Shown: positions 8,585 to 22,340 of the stretch, piece after piece
Numbering within the stretch: position 1 is the first letter of the stretch
Layout of the letters: each line of letters starts with the position of its first letter
Assembly (NCBI GenBank): GCA_028286365.1
Contig: JAQBRR010000002.1
Location: forward strand, 1-42,164
From: Candidatus Saccharimonadota bacterium
Lineage (GTDB): Bacteria; Patescibacteriota; Saccharimonadia; Saccharimonadales; Saccharimonadaceae
DNA: 42,164 nt
Reading direction: 5' to 3'
Program-made: the position numbers and the translations under genes
Notes under the pieces: model-generated
What the model saw: only the letters and a program-made list of their open reading frames with translations
Told to the model about the DNA's origin: nothing
Database searches by the model: none

Positions 8585-10528
8585 TTAGAGTAGGCTAGTA
8601 GGGTCGAGCTCAGATTGCCAGTGGGCTACAGGGACAAAGGCTAAAGCTTCAATTAAATATTCTCGTTTTGGACTTTTGAGAACGAGTTGCCATCGGTAAC
8701 TATCACGTTGACGTTCGTAAAAGGCAGGTGTCGGACCGAGGATTGTGATGTGGGGGTTTACTCGTTGTTGTAGGTCCAGAGCAAGTGCTTTGGATGCTTT
8801 TATACTTGCAGCTTCAGTCTTGAATGAGCAGGTTAGTTTGAGTAGATAGGTAAATGGGGGGAACAGGGCTTTTTTGCGCTCCTTGAGGGCATAATCGTAA
8901 AATGAATCGTAATCTTGCGCCAGTCCAAACGCTACACTTGGGTGAGTCGGTTGGTAACTTTGTACAATTACCTGCGTCTGGTGTTCATTACGACCAACTC
9001 GTCCAACGACCTGTGCAAGGAGCTGAAATGTTCGTTCGCTGGTACTAAAGTCGGGCAACGCCAAGCCACCGTCCGCTTGGATCACACCAACAGTACGAAG
9101 ATGAGGCAGGTCCAGGCCCTTGGCGACTACTTGTGTACCAATGGCGATATTAATTTCACCGCTATATAGTTCACTATAGCGAGCGTTGACGGTTTGCTTA
9201 GCATCATTATCGGCGTCAAAACGCGCAATGTTTGCCTTGGGGTAGAGCTTACGTAATTCTGACTCGATTAATTTTGTGCCAAAGCCTTTATGAATGATGT
9301 CGACGTGGTGGCAAACGGGGCACATGGTCGGGACTTTCTCTTGATGGTCGCAAATATGACAACGGAGCAGGTGCTGATCATTATGTAGCGTCAGTGGAAC
9401 AAAACAGCGTGGACACTCAGCGGTCCAGCCGCAATTCTCGCATAGGGTCGATGAGGCACTACCCCGACGATTATGAAATATGAGCGCTTGTTTGCCACTA
9501 GTGAGTGTTTCGTCGAGTGCAGACAGGAGCTGCTTTGATAAGAATCTATGCCCATTAAAGTTAGCGCGCTTGGTCATATCTACGAGAGTAATAGTAGGAG
9601 CAATTCTATCCGTGCGTGCTGAAGTCGTAAGTTTTAGAATAGGGCGACCAGATTGTTCAGCCAGATAACGATCGGCAACTGTTGGTGTAGCGCTGCCAAA
9701 AATAACTCGTGCATCGTGGAAGCGGCCAAGCATTGTTGCGGCTCGTAACGCAGAATAGCGAGGTGCTTGCTCTTGTTTGTAACTTGGCTCGTGGGCTTCG
9801 TCAACAATAATTGCGCCAACATTTGGTAATGGCGTAAATAGGGCAGACCTGGCGCCGATAACTACCCGAGGTGTTGTTGAATGTAAAGCTTCCCGCCACG
9901 TAGTATGACGCTCTGCCTCAGTAATAGTCGAGTGAACGACAAGGATGTCTTTAAAATGATGTGAAAACTCGGCTATTATCTGTGAGGTTAGCGCAATTTC
10001 GGGTACCAACACAATGGTTGACTGACCCTTTTCGAGCATCTGTTTGGCGAGTTCTATATAAATTTCTGTCTTGCCAGATCCAGTAACGCCCTGCAGTAGA
10101 AACGTACCTGAATCAGACGACTCGAGAGTTTTGATGACACTCGACTGCTCTTTATTGAACACAATATTTGTTCGATTTCGTTTTGTAACTGCAGGAATAG
10201 TTTTGGTATTTGCCCGTCGTACAGTTTGTAGACCTCGTGGTAGGAGTGTCTGCAGGACGAGTGACAGAGGCGTAACGTAATACTCTGCAAGCCAACTCGC
10301 CAAGCGTACTAGCTGATCTGGCAGAGGCCTGTCTTCGATGAGCAACGAAATAGGTTTGGTTTTATAGGTCGGTTCCTTTGTCTCACGCATAATAAGACCG
10401 ATCATCTGTTTTTTACCCACCTCGACTACAACGAGTTGACCTACAGAAAGTGCCGTCTCCGAACTGTACGTAAAGACATCATGACCAGGCCTCACGATCT
10501 GATTTGGGGCAACCTCAAAGTAGTGCAT
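8585..10528 (-). CDS. priA: Primosomal protein N', replication-restart helicase PriA
   Basis: A 647-residue superfamily 2 DNA helicase that loads the replisome at stalled forks. The N-terminal DNA-binding domain is followed by Walker A (GVTGSGKT), the DEAH box (DEAHEPSYKQ), then the zinc module with four CxxC pairs (CENC, CPRC, CHIC, CPVC) inserted in the helicase core, and motifs V-VI (GTQVVAKGLDLP, QVVGRVGR). The frame is open 40 codons upstream, but MHYFEVAP begins the family's usual N-terminus, and TATAAT lies 7 nt before this ATG. It diverges from the PRTase-like gene with only 29 bp between the start codons. Confidence 0.93.
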   Translation of the reverse strand: MHYFEVAPNQIVRPGHDVFTYSSETALSVGQLVVVEVGKKQMIGLIMRETKEPTYKTKPISLLIEDRPLPDQLVRLASWLAEYYVTPLSLVLQTLLPRGLQTVRRANTKTIPAVTKRNRTNIVFNKEQSSVIKTLESSDSGTFLLQGVTGSGKTEIYIELAKQMLEKGQSTIVLVPEIALTSQIIAEFSHHFKDILVVHSTITEAERHTTWREALHSTTPRVVIGARSALFTPLPNVGAIIVDEAHEPSYKQEQAPRYSALRAATMLGRFHDARVIFGSATPTVADRYLAEQSGRPILKLTTSARTDRIAPTITLVDMTKRANFNGHRFLSKQLLSALDETLTSGKQALIFHNRRGSASSTLCENCGWTAECPRCFVPLTLHNDQHLLRCHICDHQEKVPTMCPVCHHVDIIHKGFGTKLIESELRKLYPKANIARFDADNDAKQTVNARYSELYSGEINIAIGTQVVAKGLDLPHLRTVGVIQADGGLALPDFSTSERTFQLLAQVVGRVGRNEHQTQVIVQSYQPTHPSVAFGLAQDYDSFYDYALKERKKALFPPFTYLLKLTCSFKTEAASIKASKALALDLQQRVNPHITILGPTPAFYERQRDSYRWQLVLKSPKREYLIEALAFVPVAHWQSELDPTSLL

Positions 10529-10557
10529 ATCTTCTATTATACTGCTAATATAAGCGT
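10529..10557. promoter_or_regulatory. Compact divergent promoter between priA and the PRTase-like gene
   Basis: The 29-bp gap holds two back-to-back -10 boxes: minus-strand TATAAT (10541-10536), 7 nt from the priA ATG, and plus-strand TGC-TAATAT (10546-10551), 6 nt from the ATG at 10558. Both transcripts would be leaderless, and RNA polymerase could not bind both at once. Confidence 0.65.
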
Positions 10558-16678: not shown

Positions 16679-17872
16679 ATGCCTGAAGTAAAACCAAGCG
16701 ATATACAGACGTTTGCTAGTATTAAAGTAGTAGGTGTTGGTGGTGCCGGCGGTAGTGCGGTTAACCGCATGAAAGACGCAGGCCTAACGGGTGTTCAATT
16801 CATAGCAATGAATACTGACGCACAGGCACTCCATAACTCAAAAGCTGATGTTAAATTACATCTTGGTCACACCACAACAGGTGGACTAGGTGCTGGAGCT
16901 GACCCTGCGACTGGTGAAGCTGCAGCTAACGAATCACGAGATGAGATCCGTGAGGCTCTTACAGGTGCAGATATGGTCTTTGTGACTATTGGTGCCGGCG
17001 GTGGAACGGGTAGTGGTGCTGGGCATATCGTCGCTGAAGTTGCACGCGAACTCGGTATCTTGGTTGTCGGTGTTGCCACTAAACCATTTAGCTTCGAGGG
17101 CGAAAAGCGTCGTCAGAATGCTGAATGGGCGATTTCTCAGTTGGGACGACAAGTTGATACATTGATTACGATTCCAAATGACCGCTTACTACAGACAATC
17201 GACCGTCGTACACCGCTTCTTGAAACGTTCAAGATTGCAGATGATGTACTTCGCCAAGGTGTCCAAGGTATCTCGGAGTTAATTACCGAACACGGACTTA
17301 TCAACCTCGATTTTGCTGACGTTAAGGCCATTATGAGCAACGCTGGATCGGCTCTTATGGGTATTGGACGTGCAAGCGGGGACAATCGTGCCTCTCAGGC
17401 TGCTCAGCAAGCCATTGAGTCACCACTAATTGAAGTTTCGATTGATGGTGCCAAGGGAGTTCTATTCAATGTTACCGGTGGCTACGATATGAGTATGAGT
17501 GAGATTCAAGAAGCTGCTGAGATTATTACCAGTGCTGTCTCACCTGATGCAAACATTATCTTTGGTGCAACCCTTAAGCCAGAACTTGAAGATGAGCTCA
17601 TCATTACGGTTATTGCAACTGGTTTTGACTCTGCGTACTTCCACCAGAAGGCAAATGATATTCAAGAGGAAGCATCAGAGAAAACTGAACTGACCGAAGA
17701 CGCAGTTAACAACATTGATATGAACCTTGATCACACTGAGGCTGCCGCTGCCTTTGCTGAGGAAAATACTCACGATATTTGGAATCAACCAAACGAGGAT
17801 GAGGAAGAGTCTGATACACCTGCGTTCCTACGTCGTCGCAAGAAAAACAAGAAACATAACAAGGAAGACTAA
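16679..17872 (+). CDS. ftsZ: Cell division protein FtsZ
   Basis: A 397-residue tubulin-like GTPase forming the division ring. The N-terminal nucleotide loop GVGGAGGSAVNRM, the signature GGGTGSGAG and the T7-loop region NLDFADVKAIM are intact, so it should bind GTP and polymerise. An acidic linker (about 325-380) leads to TPAFLRRR, the conserved C-terminal peptide that binds FtsA, followed by an unusually basic tail (RRKKNKKHNKED). A TATACT box and GGGAGA lie before the start. nrdR follows by 6 bp. Confidence 0.97.
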   Translation: MPEVKPSDIQTFASIKVVGVGGAGGSAVNRMKDAGLTGVQFIAMNTDAQALHNSKADVKLHLGHTTTGGLGAGADPATGEAAANESRDEIREALTGADMVFVTIGAGGGTGSGAGHIVAEVARELGILVVGVATKPFSFEGEKRRQNAEWAISQLGRQVDTLITIPNDRLLQTIDRRTPLLETFKIADDVLRQGVQGISELITEHGLINLDFADVKAIMSNAGSALMGIGRASGDNRASQAAQQAIESPLIEVSIDGAKGVLFNVTGGYDMSMSEIQEAAEIITSAVSPDANIIFGATLKPELEDELIITVIATGFDSAYFHQKANDIQEEASEKTELTEDAVNNIDMNLDHTEAAAAFAEENTHDIWNQPNEDEEESDTPAFLRRRKKNKKHNKED

Positions 17873-17878
17873 CGCCTA

Positions 17879-18334
17879 ATGGCCAAGTACAACATCGGTG
17901 ACAGTCGAGTAATTGAATCACGCGAAGTTAGTGATGGTGTAACAATTCGTCGCCGCCGCGAGTCGCCCGACGGGAAACGGTTTACAACGTATGAGCGTGT
18001 CGAGAAGCCAAATCTAGCAGTTATAAAAAAAGACGGTGGACGTGAATTATTCGATCGCGAAAAACTCGCCAATGCTATTAAACGTTCAGTCGGTAAGTTC
18101 TTTGCATCCGAAGTAGAAGTCGAAGAAATGATCAATGAGATTGAGGATGCCCTTTATGCGATTGGCGAAAATGAGATTACGTCAAAGCAGATTGGCGACA
18201 AGGTTCTCGATGAACTTGCAGAGCGTAACGAAGTTGCCTATGTACGATTTGCGAGTGTTTATCACGAATTTAAAACACTTGATGATTTTGTGAAAATCCT
18301 TGAGCATAGCCGTAAACCAAAAAAGAGTGAGTAA
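17879..18334 (+). CDS. nrdR: NrdR-type regulator lacking its zinc ribbon
   Basis: A 151-residue protein. From DSRVIESR through IRRRRE, KRFTTYERVE and the ATP-cone (about 45-135, VIKKDGGRELFDREKLANAI... to VYHEFKTLDDF) it follows NrdR, the repressor of ribonucleotide reductase genes that senses ATP/dATP. In NrdR the first 10 and the 30-35 region hold two CxxC pairs that form a DNA-binding zinc ribbon. Here they read AKYN and ESPDGK: all four cysteines are gone and the protein has no Cys at all. The arginine-rich strand is kept. DNA binding must therefore be zinc-free or lost. It follows ftsZ by 6 bp, a placement that may link nucleotide supply with division. Confidence 0.88.
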   Translation: MAKYNIGDSRVIESREVSDGVTIRRRRESPDGKRFTTYERVEKPNLAVIKKDGGRELFDREKLANAIKRSVGKFFASEVEVEEMINEIEDALYAIGENEITSKQIGDKVLDELAERNEVAYVRFASVYHEFKTLDDFVKILEHSRKPKKSE

Positions 18335-18341
18335 CAAATAG

Positions 18342-18602
18342 ATGAAGGTAGTCATTGTATATAAAAATGATAGTGATTCCGCACGCGACGTGCTCGATTT
18401 TTTGCGTGATTTTGAGCGTCAAACGGGGCATCCTCTTAAGACGCTCGAACCTGAATCCGCAGAGGGTGAGCAGTTTTGTAGAGCCTACGACATAGTTGAA
18501 TACCCAACTGTCATTGCGCTATCTGATGACAGTGTTATGCAAAATACATGGACTGGACTACCGCTACCCACGATTAGTGAGGTAAGTTACTATGTTCAGT
18601 AA
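18342..18602 (+). CDS. Thioredoxin-fold protein without CxxC
   Basis: An 86-residue protein with a beta-alpha-beta start (MKVVIVYKND), a central FCRAYDIVEYPTVIAL segment and a closing helix. The YPT is the cis-proline turn of the thioredoxin fold. The active-site CxxC at the first strand end is missing (KNDSDS), and only one Cys remains (about residue 46), so it cannot be a dithiol reductase. The end overlaps the VKOR gene by 11 bp, so the two are made together; the natural partner of VKOR is a thioredoxin-like protein. It may bind rather than reduce partners. Confidence 0.7.
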   Translation: MKVVIVYKNDSDSARDVLDFLRDFERQTGHPLKTLEPESAEGEQFCRAYDIVEYPTVIALSDDSVMQNTWTGLPLPTISEVSYYVQ

Positions 18603-19227
18603 ATTTAAAATATTCTTCACTCATAAGGATAAAAACCTTCGAGATAACCGCTGGATCTTTACTAGTATGCTTATTGGAGCAGCATTTAGCCTTCTTGCTG
18701 CTTTTGTCTTATCTGTTGAATCAATTGATATCGCTAAAAACCCAAATGCACAACTGAGTTGTAGTATTAACGCTGTTATAAACTGTGCTACCGTTGCCAG
18801 ACATCCTTCGGCGTCACTGCTAGGGTTTCCTAATAGTTTCCTCGGCCTCGTTGCCGAACCAGTTGTTATCACCGTCGCAATTGCAGGACTCGCTGGTGTG
18901 AAATTTCCGAGGCGATTCCTCTTTACCGCACAAATTTTTTATGCAGCTGGCTTTGTCTTTGCATACTATCTGTTTTTCACAAGCATGTTTGTGATTCAGG
19001 CGCTCTGTCCATGGTGTTTGCTCGTGACACTTTCGACAACCTTTGTTTTCTTCTCGATGGCGCGCTATAACATTCGCGAAGATAATTTATACTTGCCCAG
19101 AGCAGTAGCTGCGAAGGCAAAAGCCTTCATTACTCGTGATTATGACAAATTTACCTTAGCGATTATTGTTGTTGCGATTATTGCGGGCATTATTCTCAAA
19201 TACGGCTCTGCCTTATTTGCGCAATAG
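18592..19227 (+). CDS. VKOR-family disulfide-forming membrane protein
   Basis: A 211-residue membrane protein with about five hydrophobic segments. The VKOR pattern is intact: the loop cysteine pair (Cys57 and Cys65, LSCSINAVINC), the GFPNS motif near residue 78, and the quinone-facing active site CPWC (139-142). Bacterial VKOR replaces DsbB: it passes electrons from secreted thiol oxidases to quinones and so drives disulfide formation outside the membrane. Many bacterial VKORs carry a fused thioredoxin domain; here the following part ends in one more membrane helix and no such domain. The overlapping upstream gene encodes a thioredoxin-fold protein, but without CxxC. Confidence 0.92.
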   Translation: MFSKFKIFFTHKDKNLRDNRWIFTSMLIGAAFSLLAAFVLSVESIDIAKNPNAQLSCSINAVINCATVARHPSASLLGFPNSFLGLVAEPVVITVAIAGLAGVKFPRRFLFTAQIFYAAGFVFAYYLFFTSMFVIQALCPWCLLVTLSTTFVFFSMARYNIREDNLYLPRAVAAKAKAFITRDYDKFTLAIIVVAIIAGIILKYGSALFAQ

Positions 19228-19478: not shown

Positions 19479-22340
19479 GTGAAATTTAAAGCCAACACTC
19501 GTCGTCGAGCTCTCGAATACGAAAAAGATCTGGTACAGCAATGGAAAACGAACAAGACGTTTGAAAAGTCGGTTGCGCAGCGTTCCGTCAATAATTCCTA
19601 TGTTTTTTATGATGGCCCTCCGTTTATTACGGGCATACCGCATCATGGCACACTACTGAGTTCTATTGTTAAAGACGTCGTGCCTCGCTATCAGACGATG
19701 AAGGGTAAGCATGTCGAGCGTGTTTGGGGCTGGGATACACATGGGCTGCCAGCAGAAAATTTCGTTGAGAAAAAGCTCGGTATTACGAGTCGTCATGACA
19801 TTGGTGAAAAGATTAGTTTAGTTGATTACATTACAACTGCTAGGGAGAGTATGGTCAGCAATGCTGCACTCTGGGAGAGTACGATTGATCGGATTGGTCG
19901 TTGGGTTGATTTTAAGGGCGCATATAAAACAATGGACAAAGATTATATGGAATCTGTCTGGTGGGCGTTTAAACAGTTATACGAAAAGGGCAAAATTTAC
20001 GAAGGTGAACGAGTACTTATGTATGACACCAAATGGGCAACGCCACTTTCCAAGGCTGAGGTTACGATGGACGCAGGTGCGTACCAAGTCGTCACTGACC
20101 CAAGCGTTTATGTGAAGTTTAAGTTAGTCGATGAAGATGTGTTCGTCCTCGCCTGGACAACGACACCATGGACACTTCCAGCTAACACAGCTCTCGCGGT
20201 TAATTCTGAAGTTGAATATGTTGAAGTTGAATTAGATGGTACTCACTATATTGTTGCTAAAGAGCTAGCGAGCAAAGTATTTACAGATGAAAAGCACCAA
20301 GTCCTTAACTACAAAGTCGTGCGTTCATTCAAAGGCTCTCACTTGGTAGGCAAAAAATATGAGCCATTATTTGAAGATCGTGGTGAGAATGCGCATGTGA
20401 TTTGGGCTGCTGAATATGTTACGACCGAATCAGGTACAGGCATTGTTCACTTGGCACCTGCCTATGGCGAAGAGGATTTTCTGTTTGCTAAAGAAGTTGG
20501 CATTCCTGTTGTCCATGTTCTTGACGAATATGGAATTTATACAGAAGGTGATTGGGTTGGCGAAGATGTCTGGATTATTAACAAAACCATCGCAAAGACA
20601 CTGCTCGAACGTGGTGTTGTTTGGAAAATTGACTATATTCAACACGAATATCCGCATAATCCACGCACAGGTAATCGTTTGATGTATCGTGCGCATCCAA
20701 GTTGGTTTATGGATATTGATGGTCAGCGCACTGAGATGCTTGAGCAAAATAGTGAGAATATTACGTGGTTTCCAGAACACATCAAACATGGACGATTTGA
20801 AAAAACTATCGAAACAGCACCCGACTGGAACTTGTCTCGTGATCGATTCTGGGCAACTGCAATGCCTGTTTGGAAAGGCAGTGATAATGATGGTAATGAG
20901 CGTATCAAGGTGATTGGTAGTTACGCAGAACTTGCTGAACTAAGTGGTGTGACACTTGATGATTACCACCGTCCATGGGTCGACGATATTACTTTTGAAA
21001 TTGACGGCGTGACCTATACAAGAATTGAGAAGGTTATGGATGGTTGGTTTGAAAGTGGCAGTATGCCATTCGCACAGTTTCATTATCCATTCGAAAATGT
21101 CGAGAAATTTGAACAAAATTTCCCTGGTGATTTTATTGTTGAATATGTCGGGCAAGTTCGTGCCTGGTTCTATTATGTCCATGCGGTGAATGTCGGTTTA
21201 TTTGGGCACAACGCATTCAAGAATGTGATTGTAACGGGTAATATTGCTGGTAATGATGGCCGCAAGATGAGTAAATCATTAGGTAACTTTACCGATCCGA
21301 ATGTTTTAATGGACGAATATTCAGCTGATAGTCTCCGCCTCTTGTTGTTACAATCACCAGTGTTAAATGGTGAGGATTTTGCGTTGCAGGACAAGGAAGT
21401 AGGGGACGTCGCACGTAAACTCAGCATGGTCTGGAATATGTATGACTTCTTTACAATGTACGCTGAAGTCGATGGCTGGGAATTTAATGGTGACCTGTCC
21501 GATCCGACTGAGAACCTAGAGAATCCACTCGATCAATGGGTAGTAAGTCGCGTGCATCAGCTAACAGCTGAGGTAGGAAAATACATGGATGCATACGATA
21601 TTCCAAATGCAGTAAAGCCGATCTTACCATTCATCGAAGATGCCAGTAACTGGTATGTTCGTCGTTCACGTCGCCGTTTTTGGAAATCAGGTGACGACAC
21701 GGACAAGAATAATGCCTACCGAACACTCCATTATGTGTTGGTTCAATTGTCTCAAATTTTAGCACCGTTTACACCATTCCTCGCGGAGGAGTTGTACCAG
21801 AAACTCACTGGCGGCGAGAGTGTGCATCTTCTCGATTGGCCAACTGGAGGACATGTTAATGAGCTAGTCGTATCGGATATGGAGCTTGTTCGTGAGTATG
21901 TGAATCAAGGCCTCAGTATTCGCGCCAAAGAGCGACAGAAAGTTCGACAGCCGCTTGCCAGTGTGACTGTCCCGACGTTCGGAACGACGATAGATTTCAA
22001 GGATATTTTAAAGGACGAGTTAAATGTTAAGGACGTTTTTGACGGTGGAGAAGTCTCACTTGATTTATACGTAACACCAGAACTCGCTCGCGAAGGTTTG
22101 ATGCGTGAGGTCGTACGTCATGTCCAGAGCGCACGTAAAGACGCGGGCCTTAACGTTGATGATCGAATCAATCTGAGCCTAAAAGCAGATGATAATAACT
22201 TGCAAACTGCTATTAAAGAATACGAGACAATCATCACTGACGAAACATTGGCTACGAATCTTAATGACGGCGAATATACCTATACGGCAACGGTAAAAAT
22301 TGATGGAGTAGAGCTACTTATCAGTCTGGAAAAGGCCTAA
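19479..22340 (+). CDS. ileS: Isoleucyl-tRNA synthetase
   Basis: A 953-residue class I synthetase charging tRNA-Ile. The HIGH motif appears as GIPHHGTLL near residue 52, the editing domain (CP1) contains WTTTPWTLPANTAL and YGEEDF, and the KMSKS loop is GRKMSKSLGNF. The C-terminal anticodon domain and a tail with beta strands follow; no C-terminal zinc-binding Cys cluster is seen, as in the eukaryote-like IleRS type. It begins with GTG at 19479, preceded by AGAAAGG. A 250-bp leader with T-box features sits before it. It overlaps the NUDIX gene by one base (TAATG). Confidence 0.96.
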   Translation: MKFKANTRRRALEYEKDLVQQWKTNKTFEKSVAQRSVNNSYVFYDGPPFITGIPHHGTLLSSIVKDVVPRYQTMKGKHVERVWGWDTHGLPAENFVEKKLGITSRHDIGEKISLVDYITTARESMVSNAALWESTIDRIGRWVDFKGAYKTMDKDYMESVWWAFKQLYEKGKIYEGERVLMYDTKWATPLSKAEVTMDAGAYQVVTDPSVYVKFKLVDEDVFVLAWTTTPWTLPANTALAVNSEVEYVEVELDGTHYIVAKELASKVFTDEKHQVLNYKVVRSFKGSHLVGKKYEPLFEDRGENAHVIWAAEYVTTESGTGIVHLAPAYGEEDFLFAKEVGIPVVHVLDEYGIYTEGDWVGEDVWIINKTIAKTLLERGVVWKIDYIQHEYPHNPRTGNRLMYRAHPSWFMDIDGQRTEMLEQNSENITWFPEHIKHGRFEKTIETAPDWNLSRDRFWATAMPVWKGSDNDGNERIKVIGSYAELAELSGVTLDDYHRPWVDDITFEIDGVTYTRIEKVMDGWFESGSMPFAQFHYPFENVEKFEQNFPGDFIVEYVGQVRAWFYYVHAVNVGLFGHNAFKNVIVTGNIAGNDGRKMSKSLGNFTDPNVLMDEYSADSLRLLLLQSPVLNGEDFALQDKEVGDVARKLSMVWNMYDFFTMYAEVDGWEFNGDLSDPTENLENPLDQWVVSRVHQLTAEVGKYMDAYDIPNAVKPILPFIEDASNWYVRRSRRRFWKSGDDTDKNNAYRTLHYVLVQLSQILAPFTPFLAEELYQKLTGGESVHLLDWPTGGHVNELVVSDMELVREYVNQGLSIRAKERQKVRQPLASVTVPTFGTTIDFKDILKDELNVKDVFDGGEVSLDLYVTPELAREGLMREVVRHVQSARKDAGLNVDDRINLSLKADDNNLQTAIKEYETIITDETLATNLNDGEYTYTATVKIDGVELLISLEKA

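Follow-up and report, generated by a model that had tools for sequence, protein, structure and literature searches.

The gene directly behind ftsZ in a contig of a Candidatus Saccharimonadota bacterium encodes what is very probably a true NrdR, with the zinc ribbon rebuilt as a metal-free three-stranded ribbon. NrdR is a gene switch that controls the production of DNA building blocks, and the zinc ribbon is the part by which it is described to bind DNA. The window, the whole stretch of DNA to which positions refer, spans 42,164 nt of contig JAQBRR010000002.1 (assembly GCA_028286365.1, Saccharimonadaceae), and the features under discussion are collected in Table 1. The encoded protein starts with ATG, contains no Cys in any of its 151 residues and has no His in residues 1-45. 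The first-pass annotation had read AKYN and ESPDGK at the positions of the two CxxC pairs of a Cys-free protein, and the open reading frame bears this out. The protein scores above the curated equivalog cut-off for NrdR, and Pfam detects the ATP-cone and, starting at model position 10, the NrdR ribbon. The residues of the two nucleotide sites described for the NrdR cone (PMC9110341) are kept as V48, K50, E56, F58, K62, F124, V127 and Y128. The two zinc-holding CxxC pairs, a defining feature of NrdR, are absent both here and clade-wide; since the zinc ligands are missing and the other testable defining features are present, the protein is an NrdR variant rather than an ordinary member. The annotation's statement that the entire zinc ribbon had been lost is accurate for the ligands but too strong for the ribbon itself, which is predicted to persist. 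A hidden upstream start with cysteines is ruled out, because the ftsZ stop lies just upstream in the nrdR frame and no Cys-bearing N-terminus can hide there. A TIGR00244 search of the window genome (850,738 bp, 99.98% complete) returned no further NrdR; the second, weak match is the ATP-cone of NrdA.

Table 1. Features of the Cys-less nrdR locus in window coordinates, and the predicted box pair of nrdA in L090
Feature	Position	Strand	Basis or remark
ftsZ, upstream neighbour	16679..17872	+	stop 6 bp before nrdR
nrdR, Cys-less form, 151 aa	17879..18334	+	TIGR00244, 142 bits (equivalog cut-off 124.65); sole NrdR of the genome
Ribbon, residues 1-40, predicted metal-free	17879..17998	+	AlphaFold2, alignments, DNA contacts in NrdR structures
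Site of the first zinc knuckle (CPxC), replaced by AKYNIGD, shorter by two residues	17882..17902	+	alignment to NrdR of E. coli and Cys4 relatives
Site of the second zinc knuckle (CxxC), replaced by ESPDGK, tight turn	17960..17977	+	alignments
ATP-cone, residues 47-132	18017..18274	+	PF03477, E 3.8e-20
Small thioredoxin-like gene (fold assigned by eye), at the place taken by nrdJ in Cys4 relatives	18342..18602	+	neighbour table
Predicted box pair of the window genome's nrdA	L090 5462-5447 and 5429-5414	minus-strand gene	position model

NrdR is present in 146 of the 151 genomes of the same family. The collection and alignment of NrdRs that the annotation had proposed covers 137 distinct sequences: 81 lack the zinc cysteines, 56 have all four, and none has between one and three. 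The 81 Cys-less sequences come from many independent assemblies, form one clade within Saccharimonadaceae and share the ribbon IGDSRVIESREVxDGxTIRRRRExPDGKRFTTYER; among the named members are Candidatus Nanosynbacter (L079), TM7 oral taxon 352 (L072) and Candidatus Microsaccharimonas (L060). The other 56 NrdRs examined in the phylum all have four cysteines, lower-scoring ones from other families included; in the remaining genomes among the 188 that bear NrdR, the ribbon type is judged solely by proxy, from where the alignment starts (position 1-3). A single N-terminal Cys in L166 and L168 turned out to lie upstream of the start codon. We built the tree from the ATP-cone alone, excluding the ribbon, and thereby kept the Cys trait itself out of it. 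With the most distant sequences left out, the 41 Cys-less rows all group in a single clade (SH-aLRT 93, not starred); with these sequences included, one long-branched Cys-less row (G010) strays, and a second, independent loss in G010 was rejected since it appears only in the presence of the distant long branches. The Cys-less gene is nested within the family in the cone tree and occupies the same slot behind ftsZ as the Cys4 gene, as befits orthologous descent. Most likely, the cysteines were lost once, inside Saccharimonadaceae, when nrdR was already located behind ftsZ. A literature search yielded no report joining NrdR with Saccharibacteria, Patescibacteria or the candidate phyla radiation. 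Many genomes of the family, the window's own not among them, also contain frames of about 90-200 aa that match the ATP-cone weakly (G124:C3:82325, G007:C5:148165, G140:C4:15224 and others), possibly stand-alone ATP-cone proteins.

The ribbon is the best-conserved part of the Cys-less protein. Among close relatives, pN/pS is 0.04 in the ribbon against 0.11 in the ATP-cone, and pN is about threefold lower in the ribbon (0.028 against 0.089); these values derive from 482 non-independent pairs, with pS near saturation for ribbon and cone alike. Identity of the ribbon core reaches 0.85 across the whole Cys-less clade, against 0.66 among the Cys4 members of the family, and 15 of the 27 invariant columns in the Cys-less alignment fall within residues 11-39. 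The substitution pattern indicates that the Cys-less nrdR is not decaying. The annotation had named two findings that would speak for an artefact or a relic, Cys4 relatives as a sign of sequencing or assembly error and a second complete NrdR alongside a decaying one; both are excluded, by the recurrence of a common ribbon in many assemblies, its strong purifying selection and the single NrdR copy in the genome.

In solved NrdR structures, DNA is contacted by D15, R17, R26-R29 and R37 (PMC9110341, PMC12176259). Their equivalents in the window ribbon are E13 (for D15), R15, R24-R27 and R34, all invariant in the Cys-less clade; the replacement of D15 by E is also present in Cys4 relatives. AlphaFold2, with input restricted to Cys-less sequences, predicts strands at residues 10-16, 22-28 and 34-40, whether the full-length protein or just the ribbon is modelled, and may still lean on a memory of NrdR in doing so. 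Compared with E. coli NrdR, the full-length model gives a Z of 15.8. With the predicted ribbon alone, the top Foldseek matches are all NrdR, and the VIA Z against NrdR is 4.4, level with unrelated folds. The Cys-less ribbon is predicted to keep the three-stranded sheet, with a D-G turn in place of the second zinc knuckle. Across the clade, D31 of this turn is nearly invariant and G32 is invariant. Some Cys-less genera have a second knuckle one residue longer (SLDGKH), which suggests that this knuckle was probably shortened after the loss of the cysteines.

Candidate operators were sought with a position model of the 16-bp NrdR box trained on promoters from Cys4 genomes only, with RNR start codons assigned by rule, 200 shuffles per region and 596 control windows from nrdR loci. 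A box pair unmatched by any shuffle precedes an RNR gene in 37 of the 39 Cys-less genomes, which are related to each other and therefore not independent; the two misses are G008 (1 of 200 shuffles as high) and G093 (17 of 200). Promoter scores exceed 15 in 38 of the 39 genomes, against a maximum of 10.7 in the controls. The window's genome is among the 37: the search for boxes before its own nrd genes, another check the annotation had called for, places the predicted pair AAACTATATATGGGGG-17-GCACTACATATGTAGT before the class I nrdA (L090, start 5286, minus strand) with a score of 23.9. Six genomes of the same genus have another RNR, lacking an ATP-cone, with near-perfect box pairs (33.7-37.5). 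In G056, where no NrdR was found, the position model detects no boxes upstream of its two nrdD genes; reading was not reliable for L257 and L259 (nrdD regions).

Many nrdA promoters have box 1 in the interval from -35 to -10, a 16-bp spacer, and box 2 after -10. In many Cys-less genomes, the conserved C/G is missing from both outer half-sites of the proximal nrdA pair and kept in the inner ones; in the window genome this holds for box 2 only. Binding at such degenerate sites could differ, and their degeneracy, seen with the position model, accounts for the failure of the strict published box expression on nrdA promoters. An additional distal CGCTATATATAGCGTTGTAAATAACAAAC element was observed in nrdA promoters (L090 5414-5462 and L191-L212). 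The nrdA leader of G034 (L213), from a Cys4 genus, resembles a cobalamin riboswitch by eye and suggests B12 control of a class I RNR.

The gene, its conservation, its residues, the predicted fold and the candidate operators are established directly for Cys-less NrdR. Since a box model trained on Cys4 genomes finds pairs in nearly all Cys-less ones, there is good reason to consider the Cys-less protein a dATP/ATP-dependent repressor that is conventional apart from its lack of zinc; with target sites and DNA-touching residues still present, it is most likely still a DNA-binding switch. We infer that it folds without metal, binds DNA, forms tetramers and represses. On rising dATP, the ATP-cone would hold ATP in the inner and dATP in the outer site, and NrdR with both nucleotides bound would assemble into a tetramer. 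Two pairs of metal-free ribbons would then grip the two NrdR boxes across the RNR promoter and shut the gene off, as NrdR tetramers do in Streptomyces and E. coli. The shortened N-terminal loop and the D-G turn would stand in for zinc in holding the ribbon together.

Several other accounts of the Cys-less protein have to be weighed against a zinc-free repressor. The first-pass annotation had offered, next to a zinc-free mode of DNA binding, an ATP-cone sensor acting by protein contact alone, and the retained contact residues, the predicted ribbon fold and the box pairs favour the former. A protein that no longer binds DNA, and whose cone senses ATP/dATP and contacts a protein such as RNR or FtsZ, would agree with the missing zinc ligands and the constant ftsZ neighbourhood. 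It is nevertheless improbable: the DNA-contact residues are invariant even though they would be free to drift, the boxes are retained before RNR genes, and the ftsZ neighbourhood is older than the loss of the cysteines. Alternatively, the protein might bind DNA and repress RNR with a metal held in the ribbon by Asp and Glu. Nothing points directly to such a site other than the near-invariance of D31, and the small, polar and turn residues at the former knuckle positions, in a stretch of 45 residues free of Cys and His, make it still less probable. Least credible of all is that the boxes are read by a different regulator and that NrdR itself is decaying or error-ridden, given the low pN/pS of the ribbon, the recurrence of this form across many assemblies and a genome with no second NrdR.

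The neighbourhood of ftsZ requires an explanation of its own. An ftsZ gene lies within 300 bp upstream of nrdR at 96 of 99 Cys-less loci and at many Cys4 loci. The arrangement ftsZ-nrdR-nrdJ, with a Cys4 NrdR, occurs both outside this family, elsewhere in the order and class, and within several of its genera. Further Cys4 genera have no nrdJ at this position; there nrdR is flanked by ftsZ and a thioredoxin-like gene, which is also the slot of the Cys-less genes. The neighbourhood is best read as the relic of an nrdRJ unit in which nrdR stayed when nrdJ left. Accordingly, the annotation's suggestion that adjacency to ftsZ links dNTP levels with division finds no support: the adjacency descends from an older arrangement, ftsZ-nrdR-nrdJ, and does not speak for such a link. 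A coupling of dNTP level and division through NrdR would be in keeping with the tight spacing of ftsZ and nrdR, kept clade-wide. We regard it as scarcely more probable than a metal site of Asp and Glu, since descent explains the position of the gene and the position model finds no box pair in the 42-kb window (top score 9.2). Positions 18342-19227, following nrdR, encode a small thioredoxin-like protein that lacks CxxC and a membrane protein resembling VKOR (both named by eye), and homologues follow nrdR in most Cys-less genomes.

The absence of zinc ligands is not confined to NrdR in a sample of proteins from the window genome. DnaG has no CHC2 zinc ligands (GLSPFSGEKTPSF ... IWHDFSSGRGG; L268, G000:C1:87716-87991, minus strand), and neither have the other readable DnaGs of the order (L270-L298), families with Cys4 NrdR included. 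Sequence comparison indicates that DnaG, a protein of replication, lost its zinc ligands before the NrdR change; a joint loss in the two proteins is thereby ruled out, and NrdR appears as a later step of selective zinc loss. Zinc-free forms of the ribosomal proteins L36, S4 and S14 are known elsewhere, and here too the three are free of zinc ligands (L299 17837-17953 and 16405-17070, minus strand; L300 3786-4055, minus strand). The 39 ORFs of the window have a Cys content of only 0.39%, and IleRS (953 aa, 19479-22340) and FtsZ have none. The lineage has not given up zinc altogether: CxxC pairs are kept in PriA (8588-10531) and in a SprT-like ORF (1962-2429), and an alcohol dehydrogenase also retains its zinc motifs. 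The NrdR change may have been caused by zinc or cysteine saving, oxidant tolerance or drift. Speculatively, a single-step, clade-wide swap to a metal-free ribbon, with the half-sites adjusting, might belong to a gradual elimination of zinc sites among the proteins of replication, translation and regulation in the host-dependent Saccharibacteria, a scenario that we advance as possible rather than probable.

A natural Cys-less clade that keeps target sites and contacts shows what the ribbon cannot do without, and offers a metal-free NrdR for structural work. It opens the question of zinc saving in tiny epibiotic bacteria to experiment, and corrects the idea of ftsZ adjacency as a division signal. 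Genetic tools are available for cultured Saccharibacteria (PMC10633639). The Cys-less form resembles the NrdRs of Streptomyces coelicolor and E. coli (PMC9110341, PMC12176259) in its combination of ribbon and ATP-cone, about 40% identity, the DNA-contact and nucleotide-site residues, and the paired 16-bp boxes before RNR genes. Unlike them, it has no zinc ligand, both knuckles are shorter, and some of the nrdA operators are degenerate on the outside. Cren7/Sul7, archaeal chromosomal proteins that arose from a zinc ribbon by metal loss (PMC5906684), are likewise DNA-binding zinc ribbons minus the metal, with knuckles turned into turns; however, they form an SH3-like barrel, package DNA unspecifically and have no homology to NrdR as far as tested. 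L36, S4 and S14 parallel NrdR in that the protein is kept and the ligands are lost, but these proteins are held by rRNA inside the ribosome. The comparison within the same lineage is with the DnaG of Saccharimonadales, a DNA-metabolism protein with a zinc ribbon, which has likewise lost every ligand, although earlier than NrdR and also in families whose NrdR retains four cysteines.
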